This document shows, one piece after another, positions 590 to 61,277 of a stretch of 64,000 nucleotides of DNA; position 1 is the first letter of the stretch, and each line of letters begins with the position of its first letter. Position numbers and translations under genes: made by a program. The notes below the pieces were generated by a model that saw nothing but the letters and a program-made list of their open reading frames with translations, was not told the origin of the DNA and made no database searches. The DNA is from Pedococcus dokdonensis (lineage in GTDB: Bacteria; Actinomycetota; Actinomycetes; Actinomycetales; Dermatophilaceae). The stretch lies in the NCBI RefSeq assembly GCF_900104525.1, contig NZ_LT629711.1:1178001-1242000 (forward strand), given 5' to 3'.

Positions 590-1722
590 ACGCCGTCCGC
601 AGCTTCTTCTCCGGTGTCGCCGCGCGGTTCCGCGCCCTGCCCCGCTGGGCGCGCTACCTGCTCATCGTGGCGGCGGTGGTGTTCATCTACTTCCTGCCGA
701 TCCTCAACCCGCCGCTCATCACGACGACCGACTCCGACTTCGGCGCCGTGCTCTTCCTCTGCGCGTTGTACGCCCTCGTGGCGATCGGGCTCAACATCGT
801 CATCGGGTATGCCGGGTTGCTCGACCTCGGCTACATCGGGTTCTTCGCGATCGGCGCGTTCACCGTGGGTGTCCTCGGCTCGGCGCACGGCAAGGTGCCG
901 CTGCTGCTGTGCATCCCGATCGCGATGGGCGTCACGCTGTTGTCGGGCATCATCCTCGGCGCACCGACCCTTCGGGTCCGCGGCGACTACCTCGCCATCG
1001 TGACCCTCGGGTTCGGTGAGATCGTCCGGCTGATCCTGGTCAACGCCGACAGCCTCACCGGTGGCTCGCGCGGCATCTCCAACATCCCCACTCCCCCGAG
1101 CTGGGCGTTGTTCGAGATCCCGAAGATCCGCTGGGAGGGACTCACGGCCTACGTCGACCTCGACAACACGACGACGTTCCTGCAGTTCGGGGTCACCGAC
1201 TCGGTGCCCTACTACTGGCTGGCGCTGACCCTGGTTTTCGTCGTGCTCTTCCTCGACTGGCGGATGCAGAACTCCCGCGTCGGCCGGGCCTGGGAGGCCA
1301 CCCGCGAGGACGAGGACGCCGCCGAGCTGATGGGTGTCCCGACCTTCCGGTTCAAGCTGCTGGCCTTCGCGACCGGCGCCGCCATCGGTGGCCTCTCGGG
1401 TGCGCTCTTCGCCACCAAGCAGCAGTTCATCAACCCGGACAACTTCACCATCCTCTACTCCGTGCTGTTCGTGGCCATGGTGGTCGTCGGTGGCCAGGGC
1501 AACCGGTGGGGCGTCATCCTCGCCGCGTTCCTGCTCACCTGGGCCCCCGAGAAGTTCCGCTTCCTCTCCGACGCGCGCTTCCTGCTCTTCGGGCTCGCCC
1601 TGATGGCGCTGGCGATCTTCCGGCCGCAGGGCCTGTTGCCGCCACGGCGGTCGGTCCGCGCCAAGCGGGCGGACGAGGAAGCCCCAGACAGCATCGACGC
1701 GGAAGGAGTGGCTCGTGCCTGA
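586..1722 (+). CDS. livM: Branched-chain amino-acid ABC transporter permease LivM
   Basis: Second membrane subunit of the HAAT transporter, 378 residues, close to the family norm. About nine to ten hydrophobic segments are visible, starting near residue 22. The ATPase-coupling loop 'AWEATREDEDAAELMGVPT' lies near residue 230 and is followed by the 'ATGAAIGGLSGALFA' helix. The middle 'GAPTLRVRGDYLAIVTLGFGE' segment is the conserved LivM motif. The ATG start overlaps the livH stop by 4 bp. The charged C-terminal tail (RRSVRAKRADEEAPDS) ends within the start region of livG. It is the third-to-last gene of a compact livHMGF operon; any binding protein must lie outside the window. Confidence 0.95.
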   Translation: MNAVRSFFSGVAARFRALPRWARYLLIVAAVVFIYFLPILNPPLITTTDSDFGAVLFLCALYALVAIGLNIVIGYAGLLDLGYIGFFAIGAFTVGVLGSAHGKVPLLLCIPIAMGVTLLSGIILGAPTLRVRGDYLAIVTLGFGEIVRLILVNADSLTGGSRGISNIPTPPSWALFEIPKIRWEGLTAYVDLDNTTTFLQFGVTDSVPYYWLALTLVFVVLFLDWRMQNSRVGRAWEATREDEDAAELMGVPTFRFKLLAFATGAAIGGLSGALFATKQQFINPDNFTILYSVLFVAMVVVGGQGNRWGVILAAFLLTWAPEKFRFLSDARFLLFGLALMALAIFRPQGLLPPRRSVRAKRADEEAPDSIDAEGVARA

Positions 1723-2629
1723 CACCACTGACACGACCGGCCCCGACGAGACGCGCGGGGCGCGCGTCGACGACGACAGGGTGCTGGCCCCCGACGAGGA
1801 GGCCGTGCCCGACACCTCGGTCGACATCTCGGTCGACGAGGTGAGCAACGCGCCCAAGGGCAAGATGCTCGAGGTCGACGACGTGACGCTCCGCTTCGGT
1901 GGCGTCACCGCGCTCGACGGGGTGTCGTTCCACATCAACACCGGCGAGATCCTCGGACTGATCGGACCCAACGGGGCCGGCAAGACGACCTGCTTCAACG
2001 TGATGACCGGTGTCTACCAGCCCACCTCGGGTGCGGTGCGGTTCATGGGCGAGCCCCTGGGCAAGCGCAAGAAGTTCCAGATCACCAAGCTGGGCATCGC
2101 GCGCACGTTCCAGAACATCCGGCTGTTCCACAACATGACCGCTCTCGAGAACGTCCTCGTCGGGGCCGACGCCCACCACTCCACCGGTATGGGGTCGGCG
2201 CTGCTGCGCCTCCCCCGGCACCACGCCGAGGAGTCCGAAGGCATGGACCGGGCCTACGAGCTGCTCAAGTTCATGGGTCTGGAGAAGCGGGCCGACGAGC
2301 TGGCCCGCAACCTTCCCTACGGCGACCAGCGACGACTCGAGATCGCCCGCGCGCTGGCCACGAACCCCAAGCTGCTCTGCCTCGACGAGCCGGCTGCCGG
2401 GTTCAACCCCGCGGAGAAGGCCCGGCTGATGGAGCTGATCCAGACGATCCGCGACCAGGGCTACACCGTGCTGCTCATCGAGCACGACATGAAGCTGGTC
2501 ATGGGTGTGACAGACCGGATCGTCGTCCTCGAGTTCGGCAAGAAGATCGCCGAGGGTGTGCCCTCCGAGATCCAGGACAACCCTGCGGTCATCGCCGCCT
2601 ACCTGGGAGTTGATGAAGATGCTTCTTGA
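1715..2629 (+). CDS. livG: Branched-chain amino-acid ABC transporter ATPase LivG, with acidic N-terminal extension
   Basis: ATPase subunit of the HAAT transporter. Walker A GPNGAGKTTCFN, Q-loop region 'ARTFQNIRLF', the signature-like 'LPYGDQRRLEIARALA' and Walker B 'LLCLDEPAAGFNP' are all present, followed by the H-loop 'LLIEHDMKLVM'. Family members usually begin at the equivalent of MLEVDDVTLRFGG. Here the GTG at 1715, with a strong GGAAGGAG ribosome site six bases upstream, adds about 50 residues rich in Asp, Glu and Thr. An internal ATG at 1865 with a weaker AAGGG would give the standard 254-residue protein. I chose 1715 because of the ribosome site and the 8-bp overlap with livM. Confidence 0.93.
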   Translation: MPDTTDTTGPDETRGARVDDDRVLAPDEEAVPDTSVDISVDEVSNAPKGKMLEVDDVTLRFGGVTALDGVSFHINTGEILGLIGPNGAGKTTCFNVMTGVYQPTSGAVRFMGEPLGKRKKFQITKLGIARTFQNIRLFHNMTALENVLVGADAHHSTGMGSALLRLPRHHAEESEGMDRAYELLKFMGLEKRADELARNLPYGDQRRLEIARALATNPKLLCLDEPAAGFNPAEKARLMELIQTIRDQGYTVLLIEHDMKLVMGVTDRIVVLEFGKKIAEGVPSEIQDNPAVIAAYLGVDEDAS

Positions 2630-6598: not shown

Positions 6599-6704
6599 CG
6601 TAGGTGGCGCCACCGACAGCGCTCGCCGGGCCTTCACCGGGCACGCAGCGCCGGGCGGCCCGGACGTCGCGCGCTCGGCCGACCCCGCGGCATACAGTCG
6701 GCCC

Positions 6705-11807: not shown

Positions 11808-12689
11808 ATGACGACGAGGACACCGGCGCGCCCGCTGGTGCTCGTCCTCACCGCCATCGTGTCGGTGCAGTTCGGCGGGGCGCTGGCCGCCACCCTCGTC
11901 CCCGAGATCGGTGCCGGCGGGTCGGTCACCCTGCGGCTGCTCTTCGCCACCGCCATCCTCTGGGCGGTGGCCCGCCCGCGGGTGCGGGGGCACGGCCGGG
12001 CCGCCTGGCTCACGGTGCTCGGCTTCGGGGCCGCCCTCGGCCTGATGAACCTGGCCTTCTACGGGTCGCTGGGTCACCTGCCCATCGGGGTCGCCGTCAC
12101 CGTGGAGTTCCTCGGACCGCTGACCCTGGCGACGATCCTGTCGAGGCGACTTCGTGACCTCGCGGCGGTCGGTGCGGCCGCAGTCGGCGTCGTGCTCATC
12201 TCCGAGGCCCTCGAGACACCCTTCGACCAGGTGGAGTGGACCGGGCTGGGACTGGCCGCGCTCGCGGGCGCCTGCTGGGCGGCATACATCATCGCCAGCG
12301 GTCGGGCCGGCCGGGAGTTCCCGAAGCTCGAGGGGCTGGCGCTCGCGATGGCGGTGGCCCTGGCGCTGACCCTGCCCTTCGGGCTGGGCAGCGTGCCCGA
12401 CTGGACGGGCGAGCACCTGGCCAAGGGCCTCGGCATCGCCGTGCTGTCCTCGGTGCTCCCCTACTCGCTCGAGCTGGCCGCGCTGCGCACGCTGGACCCC
12501 CGGGTCTTCGGGATCCTGCTCAGCCTCGAGCCCGTCGCGGCAGCACTCGCCGGCCTGATCGTGCTGCACCAGCGGCTCGCGCCCCTGCAGCTGGTCGGCA
12601 TGGCCCTGGTGGTGCTGGCCAGCGCCCTGGTGATGGGCGCCGGCCAGCGCCGGACCGGCCGGGCCGACCCGGCCGTGTCAGGAGGCTGA
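11808..12689 (+). CDS. EamA/DMT-family exporter (RhtA-like)
   Basis: Polytopic inner-membrane transporter of 293 residues with about ten hydrophobic segments arranged as two EamA repeats. The pattern 'GVAVTVEFLGPLTLATILSRR' in the first half and 'VLSSVLPYSLELAALRTLDPRVFGILLSLEPVAAALAGLIVL' in the second is typical of the RhtA threonine/homoserine exporter subgroup. The exported compound is inferred only as an amino acid or related metabolite. The gene stands alone, and its last 12 bases overlap the 3' end of terC on the opposite strand. Confidence 0.85.
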   Translation: MTTRTPARPLVLVLTAIVSVQFGGALAATLVPEIGAGGSVTLRLLFATAILWAVARPRVRGHGRAAWLTVLGFGAALGLMNLAFYGSLGHLPIGVAVTVEFLGPLTLATILSRRLRDLAAVGAAAVGVVLISEALETPFDQVEWTGLGLAALAGACWAAYIIASGRAGREFPKLEGLALAMAVALALTLPFGLGSVPDWTGEHLAKGLGIAVLSSVLPYSLELAALRTLDPRVFGILLSLEPVAAALAGLIVLHQRLAPLQLVGMALVVLASALVMGAGQRRTGRADPAVSGG

Positions 12690-13746: not shown

Positions 13747-13867
13747 GGAGGTCTCTCCCGCCCCGTGTGGTGCGGACCGGCTCCCCGGGCCCGGTATGCC
13801 GTGCGGCTGGCGACAGCTGCACGACGGGCCGTGATGACGAGGACACCGCGTGGGGATACTCCCCTCC
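13747..13867 (-). promoter_or_regulatory. yybP-ykoY-type (Mn2+-sensing) riboswitch upstream of terC
   Basis: Read on the minus strand, the leader opens with GGAGGGGAGTA and closes with GGAGAGACCTCC, so the outer GGAGG (13863-13867) pairs with CCTCC (13747-13751). The 5' GGGGAGTA and the 3' GAGACC just before the closing strand are hallmark conserved segments of the yybP-ykoY aptamer. Paired internal arms lie between them. The element ends about 30 bases before the terC start and its GGAAGG ribosome site, leaving room for translational control. The family is known to bind Mn2+ and to precede TerC-type genes. Confidence 0.8.
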
Positions 13868-16171: not shown

Positions 16172-17404
16172 GTGGCGACCACGACGGACTCCGCGAGCAC
16201 GGAGCGCACCCCGCCCTCCGGAGGTGCGGGTGCCGGTCGTCGCTGGGCGATGCTGGCCGTCAGCACGCTGGCGCAGACCGCCAGCGCCGTGGCCCTGCAC
16301 GGTCCCGCCTTCCTCATCCCCGTGCTGCACGGACGAGAGGGCTTGTCCCTCGCCACGGCGGGCCTGGTCAGCGCGGCGCCGATGGCAGGGGTCCTGCTGT
16401 CCCTCGTGGCCTGGGGGCTCGTGGTGGACCGCAGGGGTGAGCGGCTCGTACTCGGCTGCGGGCTCGCGGCCACCGCGATCGCCGCGCTGCTCGCCGCGTC
16501 GGCGCGTGGTCCGGTCGGCTGGGGTCTCTGGCTGTTCGTCGCGGGAGCCGCGGCTGCGAGTGCCAACGCGGCCAGTGGCCGGGTCGTGGTCGGGTGGTTC
16601 CCCGCTCACCGCCGTGGACTCGCCATGGGCATCCGCCAGATGGCCCAGCCGCTCGGGGTCGCCGTGGCTGCGGTGACGATGGCCGTGCTCGCCGAGCAGC
16701 ACGGCGTCCGCGTCGCGCTCCTGGTGCCCGCCGTGGCCGCGGCTCTGGCCTGCGTCGCGGTGGTCACCGTCGTCAGGGACCCACCCCGCCCGGCCCGCAC
16801 GGTGGAGGCGACGCGCAGCCCCTACCGCTCGGATCGCACGCTGGCGCGCATCCACGGTGTGTCGATGCTCTTGGTGGTCCCCCAGTTCCTCGTGTGGACC
16901 TATTCCCTGGCCTGGCTCGTCACCGACCGAGCGTGGTCGGCGGCCTCGGCGGGCACGTTGGTGGCCGTGACGCAGGTGTGCGGAGCGGTGGGCCGGATCG
17001 CCGTGGGCCACCTGTCCGACCGGGTCGGCAGCCGGATGCGGCCGTTGCGCTGGGTGGCGGCCGCGGTCGTGGCCACGATGGTGCTGCTCGGCGTGGCCGC
17101 CCACGAGGAGTGGGCCGTCGCGGTGCTCCTGCTGGTCGTCGCGTCCACGGTCACGGTCGCCGACAACGGTCTCGCGTTCACCGCGGTCGCGGAGCGCGCC
17201 GGGCCGTTCTGGTCGGGACGCGCCCTGGGGGTGCAGAACACCGGGCAGTTCCTCGCCGCCGCCGCGGTCCCTCCGGTCGCGGGGGCCCTCGTGGCGTGGA
17301 CCGGGTATGCCGTGACGTTCGCCTCCGCGTCCGCCTTCGCCCTCGCGGCCCTTCCGCTGGTGCCGGTGCGCGCCGAATCGGCGCCGAGGCGCCGCTCCCC
17401 CTGA
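16172..17404 (+). CDS. MFS transporter
   Basis: Major facilitator superfamily protein, 410 residues, about twelve hydrophobic helices. The cytoplasmic loop between helices 2 and 3 reads '[16 protein letters not shown]', a version of the MFS G-x-x-x-D-R/K motif; its second-half equivalent is '[16 protein letters not shown]'. The GTG start at 16172 lies 93 bp from the divergent uvrB start. Nothing nearby identifies the substrate. Sequence flavour resembles the oxalate/formate or cyanate (CynX-like) MFS groups, but this is weak. Confidence 0.8.
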
Positions 17405-18371: not shown

Positions 18372-19554
18372 GGTCCGGCTCCCAGCCGCTGGAGCGGGCC
18401 CAGGACTCGGCCCGTTCGTGCACCGCGTCGAACCACGGTTCCTTGGCCACCGCGTAGTCGCTCACGCTCACACCGGTGGACGCGAGCCGCCGCTTCTCCG
18501 CGGCATACTCGTGGCTCGCCGGCGGGTCGGCACGCATCCAGTCACGGAACATCAGCGCCCACCGCCAGCCGGGCGACCCGACCTCGCGGACGTGGACGTT
18601 CGCGGGCCGACCGGGGTCGGCGGAGGCATGGAACCGCTTGGGCCACACCGTCCCGTCCTTGGCGTTGTCGTGCGCGGCATCCCCGGTGCGCGGGAAGCCC
18701 GCCGCCGACAGGCGGTCGACCAGCCCGGTCTCGTCAGCGTCCTCGAGGCTGCGCACCCCGACCTGGAGGTCGATCACGTCCTTGGCGAGCAGCCCCGGGA
18801 CCGATGTGCTGCCGACGTGGTCCACGGTGACGGCGAGGTCTGCGAACACCAGCCGCAGCCGCTCGACGAGCCGGCCCGCCTGCGCCGGCCAGGTCGGGTC
18901 GGGCGCCGAGAGCGTCAGCTGCTCAGGACGGCCAGCGCGGACGCCGTGCCGCACGTTCTCCTCGAACGGGAGCAGTCGCGAGGTCCACAGGTCGTCGACT
19001 GCCGCGAGCAGCGCTTCCGGGGTGCCGTCGTTCGTGAGCCAGACGTCGGCCGCCGCGCGGCGTTCCGCGTCGGTCGCCTGGGCTGCGATTCGGCTGCGGG
19101 CGTCGGCTTCGGTCATCCCGCGGGTCTGCAGGAGGCGCTTGACGCGCGTCGCCTCGCTGGTGCCGACGACGACCACGAGGTGGTAGCCGGGGCCGTAGTG
19201 CTTCTCGACCAGGAGCGGCACGTCGTGCACCACGACCGCGTCCGCCGGGGCGGCATCGACGAGCTCGCGGGTCCGTCGGGCGATGCGTGGGTGGGTGATC
19301 CCCTCGAGGTCGTGACGCGCACGCTCGTCGCCGAACACGATGGCCCCCAGCGCGGGACGGTTGAGGGCACCGGTGTCGTCGAGCACGGTGTCGCCGAAGC
19401 GGTCCGCAATGGCCGCCAGCCCATCCGTCCCCGGGGCGACGACCTCACGCGCCAGGATGTCGGCGTCGATGACAATCGCGCCAAGGTCCGAAAGCCGTTG
19501 TGCCACAGTCGATTTCCCTGAACCGATTCCTCCAGTGAGACCGACGCGCAACAT
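18364..19554 (-). CDS. coaE: CoaE-GrpB fusion: dephospho-CoA kinase with C-terminal UPF0157 domain
   Basis: 396-residue two-domain protein. Residues 1 to about 200 are dephospho-CoA kinase, the last step of coenzyme A synthesis: P-loop GGIGSGKST (8-16), 'VIDADILAREV', 'HPRIARRTRELV' and 'VVVHDVPLLVEKHYG'. Residues from about 215 to the end are a GrpB/UPF0157 domain ('DHVGSTSVPGLLAKDVIDLQVGV', 'DWMRADPPASHEYAAEKRRLA'), related to nucleotidyltransferases. This fusion is known in actinobacteria including mycobacteria, where the extra domain is thought to help folding or regulation. ATG at 19554. Confidence 0.95.
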   Translation of the reverse strand: MLRVGLTGGIGSGKSTVAQRLSDLGAIVIDADILAREVVAPGTDGLAAIADRFGDTVLDDTGALNRPALGAIVFGDERARHDLEGITHPRIARRTRELVDAAPADAVVVHDVPLLVEKHYGPGYHLVVVVGTSEATRVKRLLQTRGMTEADARSRIAAQATDAERRAAADVWLTNDGTPEALLAAVDDLWTSRLLPFEENVRHGVRAGRPEQLTLSAPDPTWPAQAGRLVERLRLVFADLAVTVDHVGSTSVPGLLAKDVIDLQVGVRSLEDADETGLVDRLSAAGFPRTGDAAHDNAKDGTVWPKRFHASADPGRPANVHVREVGSPGWRWALMFRDWMRADPPASHEYAAEKRRLASTGVSVSDYAVAKEPWFDAVHERAESWARSSGWEPDRV

Positions 19555-23761: not shown

Positions 23762-23804
23762 CGGACTGGGGCGGCGCGCGGTGCCGGCCCGGCGGCATAC
23801 CCGG

Positions 23805-27976: not shown

Positions 27977-29040
<1,064 letters not shown>

Positions 29041-32200: not shown

Positions 32201-32220
32201 CGGCATACCGAGGTATGCCG
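32201..32220. terminator. Short perfect hairpin next to the rpsA stop
   Basis: CGGCATACC and GGTATGCCG form a 9-bp stem with a 2-base loop, ending 12 bp from the rpsA stop codon. It is also a back-to-back pair of the over-represented octamer CGGCATAC/GTATGCCG. Confidence 0.5.
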
Positions 32221-33815: not shown

Positions 33816-33889
33816 ACGGCGAAGCGCGCACACGAAAGTGCCTCCCCACCTTACCGAGGCCGTCCCTGCACGGTCAAAACGCGAGGGGT

Positions 33890-41195: not shown

Positions 41196-41923
41196 CGTCG
41201 CCGGAGCACCATCATGAGGTTCCAGGTGGCGACCTCCCGCAGCCCCGGCACCTCGACGACGGCCCGGGCCCAGTCGGGGTGGTAGCGCGGCGACAGCTCC
41301 TCGACGACCAGGTCGGGCTGGGCCCTGGCCCACCGCATGCCGTCGCCCACCCGGGCCGCGAACATCGACGTCCCGAACCGGTTCTTCGGGGGGCGTCCCT
41401 GCACGCGCTCGTAGCGCCGCGCGGCATACTCCCCGCCCAGGAAGTGCCACGGCGACGTCTCGTGCCCTCCCCACGGTGAGGCCCACGCCGTGTAGGAGAT
41501 GAAGACCAGTCCCCCGGGCCGGACCACGCGCACCATCTCGCGGGCCACGACGCCGGGGTACGGCACGTGCTCCATCACGTTGCTCGACATGACGACGTCG
41601 AGGCTGGCGTCGGCGAACGGCAGCCGCTCCCCCACGCCCACGACGTCGGGAGCCGCGGCATCGACGAGGTCACCGACGGCGACGTCGAGGCCGACGTAGA
41701 GCGCCCCCGCGCCGGCGAAGGCGGCAGCGAACTGGCGTGGCCCCGCCCCGACGTCCAGCACCGACGAGCCGGCCAGGTCGGTGTGCCCGGACAGCAGCGC
41801 GACCGTGTCGTCGGCCAGGTCGCCGTAGAACCGGTCAGGGTCGGTCTGCTCCACCAGGAACGACCGGAACAGGCGGAGCGACCGACCAGCGGTGCGATAC
41901 CGTCGCGTCGGTCGCTGATTCAC
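41192..41923 (-). CDS. Class I SAM-dependent methyltransferase linked to the AftD-like gene
   Basis: 243-residue methyltransferase of the Methyltransf_11 type. Motif I is 'VLDVGAGPRQFAAAFAGAG', followed by 'VGLDVAVGDLVDA', 'LPFADASLDVVMSSNVMEHVPYP' and 'REMVRVVRPGGLVFISYTAW'. It lies directly upstream of the AftD-like gene and overlaps it by 4 bp. The pairing suggests a sugar or lipid-linked-sugar substrate. It is divergent from the GT4 gene; the two starts are 68 bp apart. Confidence 0.85.
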   Translation of the reverse strand: MNQRPTRRYRTAGRSLRLFRSFLVEQTDPDRFYGDLADDTVALLSGHTDLAGSSVLDVGAGPRQFAAAFAGAGALYVGLDVAVGDLVDAAAPDVVGVGERLPFADASLDVVMSSNVMEHVPYPGVVAREMVRVVRPGGLVFISYTAWASPWGGHETSPWHFLGGEYAARRYERVQGRPPKNRFGTSMFAARVGDGMRWARAQPDLVVEELSPRYHPDWARAVVEVPGLREVATWNLMMVLRRR

Positions 41924-43351: not shown

Positions 43352-45148
43352 CTACCAGCGAGTTCGGTTGCGGCTGCCATTTCGGCGCAAGCCGCGCCGG
43401 ACCGCCAGGACCAGCCACGCAGCGAGTGTCGCGCAGGTCACACCCCAGCCCACGACCGTGCCCACGCCGGCATCGGGGTCAGCGACGGGGTCCGGGTCGG
43501 GGTCGGCGTCGGGGTCAGCGTCCCCGGCCGGTGGTGCGGACGGTGCGTCGGAGGGCTGGACGACCTCGACGAGGAGGACGTGCGAGGAGTCGGCGATGGT
43601 GCGAGCCGCACCGGGGGGCGGCACCGGCGCGTCCAGCCCGGTGTCCTTCTCGATGATCACGTAGCGCACCCCCCGGGCCACCACCGCGTCCCACGGGGAG
43701 GTGCCCGAGTCGATCGCCGCAGTGACCGCGGCGGCGCGGCGGCTCTCGCCCGCGATCCTCCCGCTGCTCAGCGGTAGCGAGTCGTCGTAGAGCACCCTCT
43801 GGTCGACCATCCGCGGGACCAGGCTCAGGCTCACCCGGGAGTCGTTCCAGCCGTACCTGCGGTACTGCCGCCACGGCAGCAGCCCGACTTCTCCGGACGG
43901 GGCCTGTGACAGCTCCGTCGCCGCCCGCCGCAGGTCCGCCGGGACCGTCACGGCCTCCAGCCGTCCCCGTGCGCCCCACGCCAGGTTCGGCAGGAGCAGG
44001 GGCGCGACCACGGCCAGCGCCATCGCGGGTGCCCAGAGCGCACCACCCCGACGAGCCAGCGCATCGACCAGCAGGCCCACCCCCACGGCACCGACGACGA
44101 CCCAGAGCGCGACGAGCTTCTGGCTGTCGCGCAGCAACGGACCGCCCGGCAGGTGGGCCAGCCGCTGCCAGCCGTCGGCCAGCACCGGAGTCCCACTCGC
44201 CAGGACCAGCAGGAGCCCGGCGAACGCGAGCGCGGCGGTCGCCCGGCCCACGGCGCTGCGCGCCGTTGCGACGACCCCGGCCGTCGTGAGCAGGGCCGCG
44301 GCCGCCGCCAGCGCGCCCACCCCCCGCTCCGACGGGTATGCCGCCGGGTTCCAGAAGCCACCACCGCCCGCCAGCGACACGGCCAGGCCGAGCGGGCCGT
44401 CCGAGCGGGCGGCGAAGACCCCGAACCCGGCCGGGTCGGAAGGCGCCGAGCTCACGAGCGCCGGCACCGCCCAGGCCGCCGCTCCTCCTGCGACGACCCC
44501 GAGCCAGGCCACCACGGCCCGCCACACCGGGCGTGGCAGCAGCAGCAGGACCACCACGGGCGGGCCGACCAGGACGAGCGAGTTGGCCCCGCCGGCCGCC
44601 GCGAGCACCGCCCACCCGCAGAGGGCGGTGACCGAACCCTGCCCACGCCGCACGCGGATGGCGGCGCGCACGGCCCAGGGCAGCACGGCATACCCGATCA
44701 GCACGGTCCACTGGCCGATGACGAGGCGCTCGGCGACGAACGGGTTCCACTCCGCGGCCAGCACTGCCGCGCAGGCGGCGAGCCGTCCGGCACCAGGCCG
44801 CACCATCCGCACCAGAGCGGCCGCGCCGAGGCCGGCCAGCACGAGGACACCCGCCAGGACGAGCTTCTGGGCCACGGCGGGGGTCACCAGCAAGCCCAGC
44901 AGCCAGGCCACCGCGTCGCTCGGAACGGCGCGGGGAGCCGGGGTGTCGACGCCGGTGGCGAACGGCGTCAGCCGGGCGTCCGGCGACCACGCCAGGTCGT
45001 AGGCCAGGACGACACCCGGACGCAGGGCCGGGCCCAGTACCACGACGGCCGCCACGAGGGCGAGCACGACCCCCACCGGTTCGACCGGCCGCGGCGAACC
45101 GAGGTCAGGACGCTCGTCCGGTCCGTCGGGAGCCTGGCCCGTCGTCAT
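43352..45148 (-). CDS. Large polytopic membrane protein, putative envelope glycosyltransferase-related
   Basis: 598-residue protein with about 11-12 hydrophobic helices, two short soluble loops and one helix at the C-terminus. The first extracytoplasmic loop 'VLAYDLAWSPDARLTPFATGVD' is D-rich like GT-C enzymes. A region of about 130 residues after 'LPNLAWGARGRLEAVTVPADLRRAA' appears extracytoplasmic. Just before the final helix is an Asp/Pro/Ala repeat (DADPDADPDPDPVADPDAG). I do not recognise a characterised family. Position, between the microprotein and an acyltransferase in this region, suggests polymer assembly or export. Confidence 0.7.
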   Translation of the reverse strand: MTTGQAPDGPDERPDLGSPRPVEPVGVVLALVAAVVVLGPALRPGVVLAYDLAWSPDARLTPFATGVDTPAPRAVPSDAVAWLLGLLVTPAVAQKLVLAGVLVLAGLGAAALVRMVRPGAGRLAACAAVLAAEWNPFVAERLVIGQWTVLIGYAVLPWAVRAAIRVRRGQGSVTALCGWAVLAAAGGANSLVLVGPPVVVLLLLPRPVWRAVVAWLGVVAGGAAAWAVPALVSSAPSDPAGFGVFAARSDGPLGLAVSLAGGGGFWNPAAYPSERGVGALAAAAALLTTAGVVATARSAVGRATAALAFAGLLLVLASGTPVLADGWQRLAHLPGGPLLRDSQKLVALWVVVGAVGVGLLVDALARRGGALWAPAMALAVVAPLLLPNLAWGARGRLEAVTVPADLRRAATELSQAPSGEVGLLPWRQYRRYGWNDSRVSLSLVPRMVDQRVLYDDSLPLSSGRIAGESRRAAAVTAAIDSGTSPWDAVVARGVRYVIIEKDTGLDAPVPPPGAARTIADSSHVLLVEVVQPSDAPSAPPAGDADPDADPDPDPVADPDAGVGTVVGWGVTCATLAAWLVLAVRRGLRRNGSRNRTRW

Positions 45149-48510: not shown

Positions 48511-49980
48511 ATGACAGTGACGTCAGCAGACGCAGGCTCCACGGAGCTGGGCGCGGTGCGGATCGGTGTCCTCGTGGTCGCGTACAACGCGGCGACGACG
48601 CTCCGCCAGACGCTCGACCGCATCCCCTCCGGGTTCCGCGACCAGCTCGACCACGTGCTGGTGTGCGACGACGCGAGCGTCGACGAGACCTACGAGATCG
48701 GCCTCGAGTACAAGTCGGGCTCCACCCTCCCCCTCACCGTCATCAAGCACGTCGAGAACCTGCGCTACGGCGGCAACCAGAAGTTCGGCTACCGCTGGGC
48801 GATCGAGGAGGGCCTCGACATCGTCGTGCTCCTGCACGGCGACGGCCAGTACGCCCCCGAGGTGATGGAGCAGATCGTCACGCCGCTCGTCACCGGCGAG
48901 GCCGACGTCGTCATGGGCTCGCGGATGATGAAGCGCGGTTCGGCGCTCAAGGGCGGTATGCCGCTCTACAAGTACGTGGGCAACCGCATCCTCACGCGGT
49001 TCCAGAACGCCATGACCGGCGCCTCCCTCACCGAGTGGCACAGCGGCTACCGCGCCTACCGCACCGACGCGCTGCGCGACGTGCCCTTCGCCGACTACTC
49101 CAACGACTTCGACTTCGACACCGAGATCATCCTCGGCATGCTCGGCGCCCGGAAGCGGATCATCGAGGTCCCGATCCCCACCTACTACGGCGACGAGATC
49201 TGCTACGTCAACGGCATGGCGTATGCCCGTGACGTCGCCATCGACGTGCTGCGTCACCGCGCGCACCAGATGGGCTTCGGCGGCGGCTCGACCGGTGGCG
49301 TGGACACCGCGGCGTACGAGGTGAAGCACAGCCCGCACTCCTCGCACGGGCAGCTCCTCACCTGGCTCACCGGAGTCCCCTCCGCCTCGGTCCTCGACGT
49401 CGGCTGCTCCGACGGCCACTTCGCCGGCCTGGTGCGGGCGATGGGGCACCGCGTGGTCGGTGTCGACCTGGTCAAGCACGAGGGCATCGGCCAGCGCATC
49501 GACGAGTTCGTCGAGGCCGACCTCAACCGGGGCCTGCCACCGGAGGCCGGCACCGGCTACGACGTCATCGTCGCGGGCGATGTCCTGGAGCACGTGATCG
49601 ACCCCGACTCGTTGATGGCCGACATGGTGTCCCGCCTCGGCGACGGCGGCGAGATCCTCGTGAGCGTGCCCAACTTCGGGCACTGGTACCCGCGACTGCG
49701 GACCGCCTCGGGCAACTTCGACTACGACCAGCGCGGTCCCCTCGACCGTGGGCACGTCAGGTTCTTCACCCGGCGCAGCTTCGAGCGCCTGATCTCCGGG
49801 GCCGGCCTGCGGATCGTCGAACGCCGCACCGTGGGGTCGCCACTCGACGTGCTCGAGCGCGGGGGCAACCCGGTGGTGGGCCGCGTGGCGCGGTTCGCGT
49901 CTGCCGTCGACCGAGCCGCGGTGCGGGTCTGGCCCACCCTGTTCGGCTATCAGTTCCTCTACAAGCTGGAGCGCGTTTGA
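48511..49980 (+). CDS. Fusion of GT2 glycosyltransferase and SAM methyltransferase
   Basis: 489-residue two-domain protein. The first ~240 residues are a GT2 domain of the dolichyl/polyprenyl-phosphate sugar type: 'IGVLVVAYNAATTLRQTL', 'DHVLVCDDASVDETYE', D-x-D-like 'LLHGDGQYAPEVM' and 'EWHSGYRAYRTDALRDVPF'. From about residue 290 a methyltransferase follows: 'VLDVGCSDGHFAGLVRAMGHRVVGVDLV', 'VIVAGDVLEHVIDPDSL' and 'ILVSVPNFGHWYPRLR'. No membrane anchor is evident. ATG 48511 directly follows AGAGAGGG; GTG 48517 would have better spacing. The stop overlaps the next gene's TTG. The fusion may make and methylate the same lipid-linked sugar. Confidence 0.85.
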   Translation: MTVTSADAGSTELGAVRIGVLVVAYNAATTLRQTLDRIPSGFRDQLDHVLVCDDASVDETYEIGLEYKSGSTLPLTVIKHVENLRYGGNQKFGYRWAIEEGLDIVVLLHGDGQYAPEVMEQIVTPLVTGEADVVMGSRMMKRGSALKGGMPLYKYVGNRILTRFQNAMTGASLTEWHSGYRAYRTDALRDVPFADYSNDFDFDTEIILGMLGARKRIIEVPIPTYYGDEICYVNGMAYARDVAIDVLRHRAHQMGFGGGSTGGVDTAAYEVKHSPHSSHGQLLTWLTGVPSASVLDVGCSDGHFAGLVRAMGHRVVGVDLVKHEGIGQRIDEFVEADLNRGLPPEAGTGYDVIVAGDVLEHVIDPDSLMADMVSRLGDGGEILVSVPNFGHWYPRLRTASGNFDYDQRGPLDRGHVRFFTRRSFERLISGAGLRIVERRTVGSPLDVLERGGNPVVGRVARFASAVDRAAVRVWPTLFGYQFLYKLERV

Positions 49981-52074: not shown

Positions 52075-54747
52075 TCAGTGCGCGGCGTCGAACCAGGACC
52101 GACCGACCCCCACGCTGACGTCGAGCGGGACATCCATGGCGATGGCACCACCCATCTCCTTGCGCACCAGCGCCTCGACGTCCGCCGCTTCACCGGGCGC
52201 GATCTCCAGCACCAGCTCGTCGTGCACCTGGAGCAGCTGCCGCGAGCGAGCACTGGAGTCCGCCAACGCCTGCTCGACCCGAAGCATCGCCAGCTTGATG
52301 ATGTCGGCGGCCGAGCCCTGGATCGGTGCGTTGAGCGCCATCCGCTCGGCCATCTCGCGACGTTGGCGGTTGTCGGAGGTGAGGTCGGGCAGGTAGCGGC
52401 GCCGACCGAGCATCGTCTCGGTGTAGCCGGTGCCGCGCGCCTCGGCCACGACCGAGTCGAGGTAGTCCTTCACCCCGCCGAACCGGGCGAAGTACTCGTC
52501 CATCAGGCCCTGGGCCTCGCCCGTGGAGATGGTCAGCTGCTTCGACAGCCCGAACGCCGACAGGCCGTAGGCGAGGCCGTAGGACATCGCCTTGACCTTC
52601 GACCGCATCGCCGACGTGACGTCCTCCGGCTCGACGGAGAAGACCCGCGACCCGACGAACCGGTGCAGGTCCTCGCCGGACCGGAATGCCTCGATCAGGC
52701 CCTCGTCACCCGACAGGTGCGCCATGATCCGCATCTCGATCTGGCTGTAGTCGGCCGACATCAGCGACTCGTAGCCGTCGCCGACGATGAAGACCTCGCG
52801 GATCCGGCGGCCCTCGTCGGTGCGGATGGGGATGTTCTGGAGGTTCGGGTCGGTCGACGACAGCCGGCCCGTCGCAGCGATGGTCTGCTGGTAGGTGGTG
52901 TGGATCCGGCCGTCGTCGGCCACCGACTTGAGCAGCCCCTCGACGGTGACCCGCAGCCGTGAGGAGTCGCGGTGCCGCAGCAGCGCCTCGAGGAACGGGT
53001 GCTCGGTCTTGGTGAACAGGTCGTTGAGCGCGTCGGCGTCGGTGGTGTAGCCGGTCTTGGTGCGGCGGGTCTTGGGCAGTCCGAGCGTCTCGAAGAGCAC
53101 GACCTGGAGCTGCTTGGGCGACCCGAGGTTGATCTGGTCGCCGCCGATCGCGTCGTAGGCGTCCTGCTGGGCCTCGCGGACCTTGGCGGCGAAGTCGGCC
53201 TCGAGCTCGGTCATCACGGCGACGTCGGCGGCGATGCCCGTGCGCTCCATGCCGGCCAGCACCTGCTCGAGCGGCAGCTCGACGTCCTGCTGGAGCGAGG
53301 TGCCGCCGGTGGCCTCGAGCTGCTCGGCCAGCGAGCCGGCCAGGTCGAGCACGGCCCGCGCCCGCACCATCGCGTCCTGGGCACCGGCGTCGCCCTCGTC
53401 GCCGAAGTCGAGCAGCCCCTGCCCGGAGGTGTCGGCCTCGGCGCGCAGCTCGCGACCCAGGTGACGCAGCACCAGGTCGGCGAGGTCGTAGGAACGCTGG
53501 TCGGGTCGGACGAGGTAGGCGGCCAGCGCCGTGTCGGTGGCGATGCCGTGCACGTGCCACCCCCGCGCGGCCAGCGCCAGCAACGGCCCCTTGGCGTCGT
53601 GCAGCACCTTCGGCCGATCGGGGTCGGCCAGCCAGGCCGCCACGGCGCTCTCGCCGGCCGGGTCGAGGGCGGTCAGGTCGACGTAGGCGCCCGCGTCGCC
53701 GTCGGTGGCCAGGGCCAGCGCGGTCGGGTCACCGGTGCCGCGGCCCCACGTGCCCACGACGTGCACGCCCACGGTGGTGCCGGCCGCGGCATACTCCTCC
53801 AGCCAGCCGGCCACCTCGTCGGGGGCGAGGACGGTGCCGTCGAGGTCGAAGCCGTGGTCGGCCTCCTCCTGCGGCGCCTCGAGGTACTCGAAGAGACGGT
53901 CGCGCAGCACCCGGAACTCGAGGCTGTCGAAGACGGTGTGGACCTGCTCGCGGTCCCAGTTCTGGCGCTCGAGGTCGGCGATCGCGACGGGCAGGTCGAG
54001 GTCGCGCACCAGCTGGTTGAGCCGGCGGTTGCGCAGCACGCCGTCGAGGTGCTCGCGCAGCGACTCCCCCGCCTTGCCCTTGATCTCGTCGACGTGGGCC
54101 ACGACGCCGGTCAGGTCGCCGTACTGGGTGATCCACTTGGCCGCGGTCTTCGGCCCCACTCCGGGCACCCCGGGCAGGTTGTCGCTGGACTCGCCGACCA
54201 GGGCCGCGAGGTCGCTGTAGCGGTTCGGGGGCACGAGGTACTTGGCCTCGACCGCCTCGGGGGTCATCCGCCAGACCTCGGAGACGCCGCGGACGGGGTA
54301 GAGCAGGGTGACGGAGTCGGTGACCAGCTGGAACGCGTCGCGGTCGCCACTGCAGATGACGACCTCCATGTCCTCGGCGCCGGCCAGCGTGGTGAGGGTG
54401 GCGATCACGTCGTCGGCCTCGTAGCCGTCGACCTCGACCCACCGGATCTTGAGCGCGTCGAGCACCTCGCGCACCAGCGGGATCTGCCCGGAGAACTCGC
54501 TCGGCGTCGCGGACCGGGTCGCCTTGTAGTCGGCGTACTGCTCGCTGCGGAAGGTCTGCCGGGAGACGTCGAAGGCGACGGCCACGTGGGTCGGCTGCTC
54601 GTCGCGCAGCACGTTGATCAACATGGAGGTGAAGCCGTAGACCGCGTTGGTGTGCTGCCCGGTGCTGGTCGAGAAGTTCTCGGCAGGCAGCGCGAAGAAG
54701 GCGCGGTAGGCGAGGGAATGACCGTCGAGGAGCAGGAGGCGACTCAC
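52075..54747 (-). CDS. polA: DNA polymerase I
   Basis: 890-residue family A polymerase. The N-terminal 5'-3' exonuclease opens 'VSRLLLLDGHSLAYRAFFAL' and includes 'VDGYEADDVIATLTTLA' and 'IPGVPGVGPKTAAKWI'-type helix-hairpin-helix (here LPGVPGVGPKTAAKW). The central 3'-5' exonuclease domain is degenerate, as in other actinobacteria. Polymerase motifs A ('SADYSQIEMRIMAHLSGD'), B ('RSKVKAMSYGLAYGLSAFGL') and C ('LQVHDELVLEI') are intact. The GTG start at 54747 is only 19 bp from the divergent thioesterase start. Confidence 0.97.
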   Translation of the reverse strand: MSRLLLLDGHSLAYRAFFALPAENFSTSTGQHTNAVYGFTSMLINVLRDEQPTHVAVAFDVSRQTFRSEQYADYKATRSATPSEFSGQIPLVREVLDALKIRWVEVDGYEADDVIATLTTLAGAEDMEVVICSGDRDAFQLVTDSVTLLYPVRGVSEVWRMTPEAVEAKYLVPPNRYSDLAALVGESSDNLPGVPGVGPKTAAKWITQYGDLTGVVAHVDEIKGKAGESLREHLDGVLRNRRLNQLVRDLDLPVAIADLERQNWDREQVHTVFDSLEFRVLRDRLFEYLEAPQEEADHGFDLDGTVLAPDEVAGWLEEYAAAGTTVGVHVVGTWGRGTGDPTALALATDGDAGAYVDLTALDPAGESAVAAWLADPDRPKVLHDAKGPLLALAARGWHVHGIATDTALAAYLVRPDQRSYDLADLVLRHLGRELRAEADTSGQGLLDFGDEGDAGAQDAMVRARAVLDLAGSLAEQLEATGGTSLQQDVELPLEQVLAGMERTGIAADVAVMTELEADFAAKVREAQQDAYDAIGGDQINLGSPKQLQVVLFETLGLPKTRRTKTGYTTDADALNDLFTKTEHPFLEALLRHRDSSRLRVTVEGLLKSVADDGRIHTTYQQTIAATGRLSSTDPNLQNIPIRTDEGRRIREVFIVGDGYESLMSADYSQIEMRIMAHLSGDEGLIEAFRSGEDLHRFVGSRVFSVEPEDVTSAMRSKVKAMSYGLAYGLSAFGLSKQLTISTGEAQGLMDEYFARFGGVKDYLDSVVAEARGTGYTETMLGRRRYLPDLTSDNRQRREMAERMALNAPIQGSAADIIKLAMLRVEQALADSSARSRQLLQVHDELVLEIAPGEAADVEALVRKEMGGAIAMDVPLDVSVGVGRSWFDAAH

Positions 54748-54766
54748 GCATGGCAGCCTATTGCGT

Positions 54767-55249: not shown

Positions 55250-55840
55250 TCAGCCGGCGAGGCGGCTGTCGGACGCCGCGGTCGCGGTCGCGCGGGCTCG
55301 CAGCGAGCGACGGCGGTGCAGCAAAGCCTCGATCGAGTGGTGGCGCGGCTCGTCCTGGCCGAGCCGGCGACGCAGCGCGGCGACGCTGGTCACCCGACGC
55401 ACGATCTGGGACGAGAAGCCGAGCCGGGCGAAGAACCGGTTGGCGTCTCGGTGCTGGGCCGGCACGTTGCAGCCGATCTGCTCGCAGCCGCGCGAGTCGG
55501 CATACAGGGTGACGGCACTCATCAGCTGGCGGGCCACTCCGTGCTTGCGCGAGTCGGGCACCACGTAGAGCTGGTCGATGGTCACGCACGGGGCGTCGGT
55601 GAGCGAGGAGAACGGGCTGGTCGCCGCCACCGCGAAGCCGACCGGCTGACCGTCGGCGGAGGCGACGTAGGCGCGCACGTCGTCGCGGTGCAGCGCCGTC
55701 GCGATCCGGCCCTCGGAGGCGGCGCGGGCGGCCACCTCCGGGCTGACGCCGGCCTCGACCCGGGAGGTCATCCAGAGTTCGGTGAAGGCCCGCTCGTCGT
55801 CCTCCGAGACGCGCCTGACGCTGATCACGGGACGGCTCAC
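55250..55840 (-). CDS. GNAT-family N-acetyltransferase
   Basis: 196-residue acetyltransferase. The GNAT core 'QLYVVPDSRKHGVARQLMSAVTLYAD' contains the acetyl-CoA pyrophosphate-binding R/K-x-x-G-x-A pattern. 'CNVPAQHRDANRFFARLGF' forms motif B. GTG 55840 has a GGAGG ribosome site eight bases upstream. The last 40 residues are Arg/Ala-rich (HRRRSLRARATATAA) and probably form a basic tail. Substrate unknown. It resembles a frequently seen actinobacterial group with an N-terminal 'VISVRRVSEDDERAFTELW'. Confidence 0.82.
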   Translation of the reverse strand: MSRPVISVRRVSEDDERAFTELWMTSRVEAGVSPEVAARAASEGRIATALHRDDVRAYVASADGQPVGFAVAATSPFSSLTDAPCVTIDQLYVVPDSRKHGVARQLMSAVTLYADSRGCEQIGCNVPAQHRDANRFFARLGFSSQIVRRVTSVAALRRRLGQDEPRHHSIEALLHRRRSLRARATATAASDSRLAG

Positions 55841-57460: not shown

Positions 57461-58669
57461 TCACGGACGCGAGAGCAGCATCGCCGCCCCCTGCCCCACC
57501 CCGACGCACATCGTGGCGATCGCGTGGTCCAGCCCCTCGTCGGCCAGGGTCATCGCCGCGGTCAGGGCGAGGCGAGTGCCGCTCATCCCGAGCGGGTGGC
57601 CGAGCGCGATGGCACCACCGTGCGGGTTGACGTGCTCGGCGTCGTCGGCGATGCCGAGTCCGCGCAGCACGGCCAGCGCCTGCGACGCGAACGCCTCGTT
57701 GAGCTCGATGGAGCCCACGTCGGCCAGGGACACACCGGTGTGGTCGAGCAGCTTGCGGACCGCCGGCACCGGACCGATGCCCATCACCCGCGGCGGCACG
57801 CCGGCAGCCGCCGTGCCCGCGACGCGGGCGAGGGGGGTCAGGCCGTAGCGCTCGACCGCCTCACCCGACGCGACGAGGACGGCGGCGGCACCGTCGTTGA
57901 CGCCCGAGGAGTTGCCCGCCGTCACCGAACCGCCCTCGAACAGCGGCCGGAGGCCGGCCAGCGCCTGGGCCGAGGTCTCGCGCGGGTGCTCGTCCCGGGC
58001 CACGACGACGTCGTCGCCCTTGCGCTGCGGAATGCTCACCGGCACGATCTCGCGGGCCAGCCGCCCGTTCGCCACAGCCTTGGCGGCCCGCTCCTGCGAG
58101 CGCAGCGCGAAGGCGTCCTGGTCCTCCCTGCTGATGCCGTGCTCGTCGGCGACGTTCTGACCCGTCTGGGGCATCGAGTCCACGCCGTAGGCCGCCTTCA
58201 TCGCCGGGTTGACGAAGCGCCAGCCGATCGTGGTGTCGTAGATCTCGGCGGTCCGCGCGAACGGCGTGGCCGCCTTGGGCTGCACGAACGGCGCCCGGCT
58301 CATCGACTCGACACCCCCGGCCACGACGAGGTCGGCGTCACCGGCCACGATCGCCCGCGCCGCCGCCCCGACGGCGTCGAGGCCGGAGGCGCACAGCCGG
58401 TTGACCGTGGTGCCGGGCACCTCCACGGGCAGGCCGGCCAACAACACCGCCATCCGGGCCACGTTGCGGTTGTCCTCGCCAGCCTGGTTGGCGCACCCGA
58501 GGACCACGTCGTCGACCCGGGCCCAGTCGACGGCCGGGTGGCGGGCGACCAGCTCGCGGACCACGTGCGCCGCGAGGTCGTCGGGGCGCACCGGCGCCAG
58601 CCCGCCGGCATACCGGCCGATGGGGGTGCGCACCCCCGAGACGAGGTATGCCGCGCGCGGCTGGTTCAT
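57461..58669 (-). CDS. Thiolase (acetyl-CoA acetyltransferase / 3-oxoadipyl-CoA thiolase type)
   Basis: 402-residue thiolase. The nucleophilic Cys is in '[21 protein letters not shown]' (about C92), the catalytic His in '[20 protein letters not shown]' and the second Cys in '[14 protein letters not shown]'. '[14 protein letters not shown]' is also intact. It condenses or cleaves acyl-CoA, in fatty acid or aromatic degradation. Start ATG 58669 ([22 protein letters not shown]). The frame is open upstream through the antisense of the next gene, which I exclude. Exact chain length is not readable from sequence. Confidence 0.92.
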
Positions 58670-59120: not shown

Positions 59121-59499
59121 GGGCCACCTCCGCTGCGGTCTGGCAATGGGTCACGGGCGACGCTAGCCCGGACGCGCAGCCGTCGTCACTCCCGCACCTT
59201 GCCGGGCTCGGCTGGCGGTTCGGCTGGCGACTCGCCCGTCCACACCGTCGCTGCCGGTGCCAGCATCGCCGTGAGGACGCACGCCACGGCGCCCCTCAGT
59301 CGCTTCGACACTCCGTCGCTCCCCATCTCTCGCGGTCCGGACGCGGACCGGTTCGAGGAAGGTAGGCAACAGAAGGCCAGTCACCTAGTGACTGCCGGTG
59401 ACTGGGAAAAGCGGGCGAAACATTGACCATCGCTTGACCGCAGATCACCGCGGTCTCCGGAGGAGAGCTCACCGCAGATGCGTCCGCAGCGGATCACCC
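59121..59499. other. Intergenic region between the PE-domain gene and tRNA-Leu
   Basis: This 379-bp stretch has no convincing gene. The open frame at 59199-59426 has an odd composition and no ribosome site. It lies downstream of the 3' end of tRNA-Leu. I looked for an integrase, direct repeats of the tRNA end and phage genes and saw none. Bases 59380-59440 are locally A-rich. Confidence 0.6.
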
Positions 59500-59711: not shown

Positions 59712-61163
59712 TCAGTCGGCGAGGTCCTCGTAGGCGGGTGCGACCTTGTTGATGGCGTCGCCCATCTTGTGCACCCGCAACGCGTTGGTGGAGCCGGGGA
59801 TGCCGGGCGGCGAGCCGGCGACGATGACGACGAGGTCGCCCTCCTGCGCCCGCCCGCTGGCGAGCAGCGACTTGTCGACCTGCTGGGCCATCTGGTCGGT
59901 GTGCCGGGCCATCGGGACGAGGTAGGTCTCGATGCCCCAGGCCAGCGCGAGCCGCGACCGGGTGTGCGGCTCCGGGGTGAACGCGAGCATGGGGATGCGC
60001 GGACGGATGCGAGACATGCGCTTGGCGGTGTCACCGGACTGGCTGAAGGTGATGAGGAACTTCGCGCCGAGCAGCTCGCCGATCTCGACGGCAGCGGCCG
60101 ACACGGCACCACCCATGGTGTGCGGCCGGGTGCCCAGCGGACGGATCCGCTCGAGGCCGTGCTCCTCGGTGCTCTCGATGATGCGTGCCATCGTCTGCAC
60201 CGCGACGATCGGGTAGGCGCCGACGCTGGTCTCGCCGGACAGCATCAGTGCGTCGGCGCCGTCGAGCACGGCGTTGGCGGCATCGGAGGCCTCGGCACGG
60301 GTCGGACGAGGGTTCTCGATCATCGACTCGAGCACCTGGGTGGCGACGATGACGGGCTTGGCGTTGCGGCGCGCGATCTCGATGGCTTCCTTCTGGACGA
60401 TCGGCACCTCCTCGAGCGGCAGCTCCACGCCGAGGTCGCCCCGGGCCACCATCACCCCGTCGAACGCCTCGATGATCTCCACGAGGTTGTCGACCGCCTG
60501 GGGCTTCTCGATCTTGGCGATCACCGGCAGGCGCACCCCGACCTCGTCCATCACCGCGTGCACGTCGTCGAGGTCGGCCGCGGAACGCACGAAGGACAGC
60601 GCGATCATGTCGGCCCGCAGCCCCAGGGCCCAGCGCAGGTCCTCCTTGTCCTTCTCGGACAGGGCCGGCACCGACACGGCGACGCCGGGGAGGTTGATGC
60701 CCTTGTTGTTGGAGACCGTGCCCCCCACGGTCACGACGCACTTCACGTCGGTGTCGCTGACCTCGGTCGCCTGGAGGCAGACCTTGCCGTCGTCGATGAG
60801 GAGGAGGTCACCGGGGCTGACGTCACCGGGCAGGCCCTTGTAGGTCGTGCCGACCTGGGTGGCCGAGCCGTCGACCTCACGAGTCGTGATGGTGAACTCG
60901 GCGCCGTTGGCCAGGTCGACGGGACCGCCGCTGAACCGGGTCGTGCGGATCTTGGGACCCTGCAGGTCGACCAGCACGCCGACCGCGTGACCCGTCTCGT
61001 CACTCGCCTTGCGGATCTCCTGGTAGATCTTCTCGTGGTCGGAGTACTCGCCGTGCGAGAGGTTGAGGCGGGCCACATCCATCCCCGCGTCGACGAGCTG
61101 GCGGATCCTCTCGGGGGTGGATACAGCCGGGCCCAGTGTGCAGACGATCTTGGCGCGACGCAT
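59712..61163 (-). CDS. pyk: Pyruvate kinase
   Basis: 483-residue glycolytic enzyme converting phosphoenolpyruvate and ADP to pyruvate and ATP. 'MRRAKIVCTLGPAVSTPERIRQLVDAGMDVARLNLSHG' is the canonical N-terminus. The B domain, metal/phosphate site 'VIAKIEKPQAVDNL' and 'GVMVARGDLGVELPLEEVP', and the active-site 'VIVATQVLESMIENPRPTRAEASDAANAVLDG' are intact. The C-domain ends 'LVVIVAGSPPGIPGSTNALRVHKMGD', the effector site region. ATG 61163. It is followed by a hairpin and tRNA-Leu. Confidence 0.97.
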   Translation of the reverse strand: MRRAKIVCTLGPAVSTPERIRQLVDAGMDVARLNLSHGEYSDHEKIYQEIRKASDETGHAVGVLVDLQGPKIRTTRFSGGPVDLANGAEFTITTREVDGSATQVGTTYKGLPGDVSPGDLLLIDDGKVCLQATEVSDTDVKCVVTVGGTVSNNKGINLPGVAVSVPALSEKDKEDLRWALGLRADMIALSFVRSAADLDDVHAVMDEVGVRLPVIAKIEKPQAVDNLVEIIEAFDGVMVARGDLGVELPLEEVPIVQKEAIEIARRNAKPVIVATQVLESMIENPRPTRAEASDAANAVLDGADALMLSGETSVGAYPIVAVQTMARIIESTEEHGLERIRPLGTRPHTMGGAVSAAAVEIGELLGAKFLITFSQSGDTAKRMSRIRPRIPMLAFTPEPHTRSRLALAWGIETYLVPMARHTDQMAQQVDKSLLASGRAQEGDLVVIVAGSPPGIPGSTNALRVHKMGDAINKVAPAYEDLAD

Positions 61164-61277
61164 GTGATCGACCTTATCGGTCGACCTCGGCGGAACGTGA
61201 CCGCGGTCACCCTGCGGACAACCACGTCCTCCCCACTTCCGGCCACGTATGCCGCGTGCTCACCACCCGGAGGGCGG

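Follow-up and report, generated by a model that had tools for sequence, protein, structure and literature searches.

An over-represented octamer of Pedococcus dokdonensis as a candidate directional DNA-uptake sequence of its actinobacterial family

Introduction

The papers cited here describe DNA-uptake tags in two Gram-negative families. The DNA-uptake sequences (DUS) of the Neisseriaceae are short non-palindromic words that occur in thousands of copies and in both orientations. They form close inverted hairpin pairs, are spaced at one to two kb and diversify into dialects that follow lineages. The uptake signal sequences (USS) of the Pasteurellaceae likewise combine a high copy number and a lack of polarity with close inverted pairs and many genic copies. 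Here, we describe a word with these same properties, the octamer CGGCATAC, in the actinobacterium Pedococcus dokdonensis. It stood out in a 64-kb stretch of the chromosome (positions 1,178,001-1,242,000), which we call the window. The word is abundant in many members of one family, which we take to be the Dermatophilaceae of GTDB. We propose that CGGCATAC is probably the DNA-uptake sequence (a DUS-like tag) of P. dokdonensis and its family, which are monoderm, and that it is read directionally.

Close inverted pairs of tags are described for both Haemophilus and Neisseria (PMC7811141, PMC2397512). In Neisseria, tags lie 1.1-1.5 kb apart, a distance that agrees with conversion tracts (PMC2397512), and tags of the Neisseriaceae are confined to lineages and come in dialects (PMC3630211). 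Unlike the DUS, CGGCATAC is an octamer, and it belongs to a high-GC actinobacterium whose genome has no match to PilM. Its copies also show a same-orientation exclusion, which goes unmentioned in the excerpted accounts of DUS. Unlike the USS, it has no clear extended motif, and uptake in H. influenzae is indifferent to tag orientation (PMC1939737).

Two further kinds of genomic word resemble the octamer. Chi sites, read by RecBCD or AddAB, are exact over-represented octamers, and directional reading is plausible here too. HIP1, the highly iterated palindrome (HIP) of cyanobacteria, shares the extreme over-representation of an octamer within a lineage, with local replacements. In the open-licence literature that we found, preprints excluded, no uptake tag is reported for Actinobacteria or for genera of this family, an absence that is not proof. 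As a word, the octamer appeared there in one paper, in an unrelated setting.

An abundant and sharply bounded octamer

The window contains 25 copies of CGGCATAC, 12 forward and 13 reverse. Dinucleotide-preserving shuffles gave a mean of 0.68 and a maximum of 4 copies (100 shuffles), and when octamers are ranked by z under a first-order Markov model, CGGCATAC comes top in the window (25 vs 0.9 expected). Under a maximal-order model it is not among the 16 octamers listed, because that model conditions on the octamer's own heptamers, which are mostly made of CGGCATAC. An earlier note, made by eye from this DNA, had already reported 25 copies where two or three were expected. All 25 exist, and 24 coordinates are exact; the copy placed at 58616 lies at 58606. 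The over-representation is confirmed as real, and the chance estimate was too generous.

The genome, a single contig of 3,942,064 bases, holds 1,927 copies (954 forward, 973 reverse). The same pattern read backwards, which served as control, occurs 57 times (29 forward, 28 reverse). Detailed statistics were taken from the window and 39 spaced 20-kb stretches, together 844 kb with 405 copies; a fortieth stretch, around comEC, was excluded from the counts and included in the cross-species alignments. A third-order Markov model predicts 22 copies in this sample, and no octamer has a higher z. The earlier note had allowed that the genome-wide frequency might fall near the Markov expectation; it lies far above it. 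The balance of orientations that the note had seen in the window extends to the whole genome.

The word is sharply bounded. Among its 24 one-letter variants, those with at least 10 copies all stay within about 2.3 times their expectation in the sample. The commonest reach 144 vs 78, 76 vs 45 and 75 vs 56, and several are depleted (for example 1 vs 15). In the flanks we see codon periodicity and, at the bases adjacent to the word, modest preferences, which led us to reject a motif longer than the octamer. As one-letter variants are little enriched and the flanking preferences modest, the site in this genome is the specified octamer itself.

Genes were called by a simple rule based on GC content at third codon positions, which gave 729 open reading frames (ORFs) covering 85% of the sample. 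Within these genes lie 311 copies, compared with a mean of 26.1 and a maximum of 32 in 20 within-gene shuffles of synonymous codons, a 12-fold excess. All six reading registers are enriched, by about 4 to 16-fold, and copies are denser in intergenic DNA (0.71 per kb) than in genes (0.43 per kb). These gene calls bear out the earlier observation that the octamer occurs in coding and non-coding DNA alike and brings in rare codons: GCA makes up 6.0% of alanine codons and TAT 7.9% of tyrosine codons. The note had also considered that codon or codon-pair bias might fully explain the excess. This we reject, since synonymous shuffling leaves 26.1 of the 311 coding copies, all six registers are enriched and intergenic DNA is denser still.

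Confinement to one family, dialects and conservation

All 11 genomes searched from the genus of P. dokdonensis are rich in CGGCATAC (625-3,986 copies). A genome was scored as high when its count reached 300 and was no less than double the control. By this measure, 85 of 149 genomes from 53 genera of the family are high (322-4,724 copies); 55 are low (7-196) and the remaining 9 intermediate. At genus level, all sampled genomes are high in 27 genera, low in 19 and intermediate in 3, and 4 genera are mixed. The comparison with related genera that the earlier note had suggested thus finds the octamer abundant across many of them. Counts reach 2,541 in Knoellia flava (whose polA product is 81% identical to that of the window), 1,102 in Ornithinimicrobium sediminis, 1,581 in Leekyejoonella antrihumi, 1,455 in Arsenicicoccus cauae and 1,604 in an uncultured Serinicoccus; an Allobranchiibius sp. 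has 202 and a metagenome-assembled genome of Mobilicoccus 29. In a class-wide draw of 394 genomes, 8 of them from the family, the other 386 all stay at or below about 0.06 copies per kb as judged by eye, compared with 0.49 here. The octamer is confined to one family. Outside it, one genome (G367) shows a mild excess of CGGCATAC, 170 vs 27 in 3.8 Mb.

The word is not uniform within the family. In G013, from another genus, the third letter is free (CGNCATAC), and the four forms, with 247, 167, 134 and 102 copies, all exceed expectation, by about 4 to 8-fold. Forms with a third letter other than G are also common in G014, in all five genomes of genus g175 and in four of the five of g48, and fall under the control in some genomes (111 vs 242 in G017, for example). 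The genus of P. dokdonensis lies in between, with 291 vs 157 such copies in its own genome and 521-746 in three congeners. A second dialect, CGGCGTAC, was counted in 38 genomes, most of them selected because they lack CGGCATAC. It reaches 2,216 vs 143 in G033, 1,359 vs 167 in G034, 3,903 vs 310 in G466, 2,111 vs 148 in G501, 1,463 vs 114 in G495 and 1,125 vs 171 in G480; many of the remaining genomes exceed the control, by about one to six-fold. The third letter of CGGCGTAC is partly free in G033 as well (CGNCGTAC). Dialects switch inside a single genus: in g26, G495 uses CGGCGTAC and has only 19 copies of CGGCATAC, whereas its congeners G035 and G520 have 1,062 and 3,681.

A search of ten word-poor genomes (80 kb each) gave no clear word in six and found a related one in two, G033 and G034. 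In G020 a palindrome, GGACGTCC, is over-represented (26 vs 4.6). In G246, a family member that lacks CGGCATAC, the search returned an unrelated octamer with sharp edges, CCCCTTCG (63 vs 10; loci L202-L205).

Copies are kept more often than octamers of like composition, which served as conservation controls. In alignments with the congener G004, at 82% identity, 32 of 67 aligned copies are exact (counting both sides; 16 shared places), compared with 35% of the controls. With G013, at 71% identity, the figures are 16 of 35 (both sides; 8 shared places) and 13.5%.

Orientation and spacing of the copies

Neighbouring copies in the sample tend to alternate, with opposite orientations in 261 of 365 adjacent pairs, and their spacing is more regular than random (mean 1,899, standard deviation 1,494). 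Same-orientation pairs closer than 1.5 kb number 41, where random positions predict about 130. Opposite-orientation pairs occur about as often as expected, save for an excess of GTATGCCG..CGGCATAC pairs within 60 bp.

A second test held positions fixed and shuffled orientations within stretches (2,000 shuffles), counting pairs at 60-1,500 bp. Same-orientation pairs were again too few in P. dokdonensis (41 vs 77.9), in its congener G004 (74 vs 109.7) and, for CGNCATAC, in G013 (637 vs 705), in each case below all 2,000 shuffles; for CGGCATAC alone, G013 gave 74 vs 91.6. Two control octamers of P. dokdonensis showed no exclusion over this range (493 vs 483.7 and 26 vs 27.2 same-orientation pairs). 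By sub-range, the first of these was high at 60-500 bp (191 vs 163.6) and low at 500-1,000 bp (156 vs 175.4, P 0.02). Each orientation thus acts like a separate population of sites in three of the five genomes tested.

Very close pairs follow another pattern. Neighbouring copies lie within 60 bp of each other 18 times in the sample; 15 of these 18 pairs are GTATGCCG..CGGCATAC, where 3 were expected, and 14 fall outside called genes. The congener G004 has 13 such pairs vs 3.4 expected. Five chosen hairpins, including the window pair at 32201/32213, were folded and proved strong (z of -5.2 to -8.2); in four of them the stem is long and has the octamers at its outer end.

The copies have no polarity. 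Both orientations are present in 39 of 40 sampled places, the exception being L160 (0 forward, 2 reverse), and over the 85 word-rich genomes of the family the strand difference has a root-mean-square z of 0.77, below chance level.

Competence genes

In P. dokdonensis, comEA and comEC are adjacent and both are open frames. The predicted ComEA carries SLBB and helix-hairpin-helix domains, and ComEC carries Competence and metallo-beta-lactamase domains. Both match the right NCBIfam families, with full-length models just or well below the curated cut-offs. The genome also has ten TadE matches. In another actinobacterium, Micrococcus luteus, Flp pili are required for transformation (PMC6370729). 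A type IVa pilus was rejected as the reader of the octamer, as PilM was matched in two of 36 family genomes (G030, partially, and G035) and not in that of P. dokdonensis. No ComP-like receptor was found, though no search was aimed at a ComP-like pilin. In the word-rich congener G004, the ComEC match is split over two separate open frames (G004:C1:1517076-1517881), which represents a broken gene or an assembly error.

Discussion

Density, lack of polarity, intergenic excess, hairpins, dialects, even spacing and conservation together make up, by analogy, the feature set of the uptake tags of Neisseria and Haemophilus. Non-palindromic abundance without polarity and enrichment in intergenic DNA and in inverted pairs are seen in P. 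dokdonensis (the pairs also in G004, not in G013), and the lineage limits come with dialects. Our proposal of an uptake sequence draws on how abundant and sharply bounded the word is, on its limitation to one family and its dialects, on the hairpin pairs of two genomes, on the absence of polarity, on the exclusion seen in three of the five genomes tested and on comEA and comEC as adjacent open frames. From these we infer that the organism is competent, that uptake drives the accumulation of the octamer, that a receptor exists and that direction matters to it. The same-orientation-only exclusion is a new element relative to the uptake sequences described in the papers cited here. A tag that is indifferent to orientation would make all close copies equally redundant; as the exclusion affects same-orientation copies only, the underlying process appears to read one strand or to work to one side.

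In the mechanism that we envisage, a receptor at the cell surface or within the wall would prefer DNA that carries the octamer, probably on a route through ComEA/ComEC and a Tad/Flp pilus. DNA from kin would then enter and recombine more often, and the octamer would be multiplied and kept. The non-palindromic word would be read with direction, so that each orientation would serve one strand or one side, over a range of about 1-1.5 kb. Single-strand passage through ComEC may be the directional step; a helicase-nuclease could be another.

Several points weigh against an uptake sequence. We found no uptake experiment in these bacteria in the literature. The indifference of H. influenzae to tag orientation means that the classic model does not predict a directional exclusion. 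The exclusion was not seen in the two second-dialect genomes tested, which weakens its generality: G033 has 48 vs 46.7 same-orientation pairs for CGGCGTAC and 339 vs 346 for CGNCGTAC, and G034 has 55 vs 39.1 (random positions, 80 kb). G013 has no excess of hairpin pairs (3 vs 2.2; 14 vs 15.3 for CGNCATAC), and in the sole Knoellia locus aligned (8.5 kb) none of six copies is kept. The machinery does not discriminate either. Of the genomes searched, 57 of 58 had ComEC and 60 of 61 had TadE, whether or not they carried the octamer; as both are near-universal, they were rejected as predictors of it. By eye, ComEA of word-rich and word-poor genomes is alike in 27 of 28 loci, many of whose ORFs are cut at locus ends (L039 has no ComEA by pattern, and the match in L173 aligns poorly). 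PilM, of the type IVa pilus, has no match in P. dokdonensis and one among 23 word-rich family genomes searched. Among the genes compared (ComEC, TadE, ComEA and PilM), none tracks the octamer.

The main rival is a Chi-like recombination signal for a helicase-nuclease other than RecBCD, such as AdnAB. Such an enzyme would read one strand in one direction of travel, making the two orientations independent, and the length of the word, its over-representation and the strand-specific exclusion all fit. E. coli Chi, however, is polarised, with consecutive sites expected on the same strand (PMC8022716), whereas most neighbours here alternate and the 85 word-rich genomes show no strand bias. This absence of polarity argues against Chi, and we consider the explanation unlikely. 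Of the 11 genomes of the genus, 10, including that of P. dokdonensis, gave no match to RecC (PF04257). This rejects a RecBCD Chi for this genome and rules out only RecBCD, AddAB and AdnAB not having been searched for. As a separate observation, RecC is less frequent in word-rich genomes (7 of 32) than in the other genomes of the family that were searched (11 of 20), a difference that shared ancestry may explain.

As possible causes, the earlier note had named methylation, nucleoid or recombination motifs, and mutational or codon-pair bias, without choosing among them. A signal for uptake or recombination gives the best fit. Maintenance of the octamer by DNA methylation or restriction would recall HIP and its orphan methyltransferases, where an abundant octamer is also replaced in some lineages (PMC4390886). 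HIP words are palindromes tied to methyltransferases, however, whereas CGGCATAC is not palindromic, and methylation leaves the same-orientation exclusion unexplained, so that we regard this origin as improbable. Still poorer is the case for a nucleoid-binding, segregation or replication signal. The even spacing would suit one, but a protein that binds duplex DNA should not make the exclusion same-orientation only, and no polarity is sustained either across the sampled places or over the 85 genomes. Segregation words such as architecture-imparting sequences (AIMS) and FtsK-orienting polar sequences (KOPS) are skewed between strands about the origin and terminus. With the strands balanced here, such a skewed word is excluded. 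That the octamer is a functionless product of mutational or codon-pair bias is barely credible: one coding register per strand is indeed preferred (GCA-TAC, Ala-Tyr), but the 12-fold excess over synonymous shuffles, the enrichment of all six registers, the intergenic density, the sharpness of the word and its dialects all speak against it.

Beyond an uptake sequence as such, we tentatively suggest, with rather less confidence, a directional code for uptake, or for uptake-coupled recombination, in monoderm actinobacteria. It would be independent of those of Neisseria and Haemophilus, treat the two orientations as separate signals over about 1-1.5 kb, switch dialects within a genus and be read by something outside the class of type IVa minor pilins. 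If true, actinobacteria would provide a third, independent case of uptake tags, and the origin of tags, by drive or by selection, would become testable with different machinery. A sequence-preferring receptor on the Tad/ComEA route would be suggested, and adding the octamer to DNA would offer a practical handle for transforming members of the family. The range of the same-orientation exclusion can be read as the length scale of a directional process, and the exclusion separates orientation-dependent from orientation-independent models.

Copies in the window

The 25 copies are as follows (coordinates within the window, strand, location).

807..814, minus, in ORF 586-1722 (plus), a BPD_transp_2 permease
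6688..6695, plus, in the overlap, as called, of a uvrA-like ORF (3398-6904, minus) and a GH15 ORF (6426-8531, plus)
12280..12287, plus, in an EamA transporter ORF (11808-12689, plus)
13794..13801, minus, outside called ORFs
17305..17312, minus, in ORF 13970-17530 (minus), with UvrB domains
18501..18508, plus, in a CoaE/GrpB-domain ORF (18364-19554, minus)
21571..21578, plus, in ORF 20744-22936 (minus)
23210..23217, minus, outside called ORFs
23793..23800, plus, just outside a histidine-kinase ORF (23805-25241, minus)
26711..26718, plus, in an SBP_bac_5 ORF (26167-27966, plus)
28651..28658, minus, in an oligopeptide-type ABC ATPase ORF (27890-29044, plus)
32201..32208, plus, left arm of the intergenic two-octamer hairpin that was folded
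32213..32220, minus, right arm of the 32201/32213 hairpin, between ORF 31099-32058 (plus) and an S1-domain (rpsA-like) ORF (32232-33833, minus)
33888..33895, minus, contains the called ATG start (33890) of a methyltransferase ORF (33890-34705, plus), a start set by the longest-ORF rule
36121..36128, minus, outside called ORFs
38819..38826, minus, in an AftD-like ORF (36984-41486, minus)
41422..41429, plus, in the same AftD-like ORF
44336..44343, minus, in an MmpA-like ORF (43352-45148, minus)
44686..44693, plus, in the same MmpA-like ORF
48956..48963, minus, in a glycosyltransferase/methyltransferase ORF (48247-49980, plus)
53787..53794, plus, in a polA-like ORF (52075-54957, minus)
55498..55505, plus, in ORF 55250-55840 (minus)
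58606..58613, plus, in a pcaF-like thiolase ORF (57461-59146, minus)
58646..58653, minus, close to the probable N-terminus of the pcaF-like gene (its family match begins at residue 165 of the longest ORF)
61247..61254, minus, between a pyruvate-kinase ORF (59712-61163) and a gltD-like ORF (61314-62867)

The uvrA-, uvrB- and polA-like ORFs of the window (3398-6904, 13970-17530 and 52075-54957) have one copy each; three genes prove nothing. For uptake sequences, a bias toward genome-maintenance genes has been reported (cited in PMC2346458).

Other repeats

Other repeats were counted over 41 loci of the P. dokdonensis genome. A dispersed hairpin repeat has the core CATGCAAAAGGCGAGTTAGCG (L127:5815, L127:17327 and others), the first ten bases of which have 27 matches in 9 of the 41 loci. 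ACTTCTGGCC occurs in 51 copies in 13 loci and is clustered, with 18, 12 and 7 copies in three of them (loci L131, L146 and L153). CTAGCAAA, part of another small palindromic repeat, has 18 copies in 5 loci (among them L140, L148 and L157). The window itself has an inverted repeat at 32062-32137, in the gap that separates ORF 31099-32058 from the rpsA-like ORF. Its arms are about 34 bp long, and three sub-words of the repeat have no further occurrence in the 860 kb of this genome examined.

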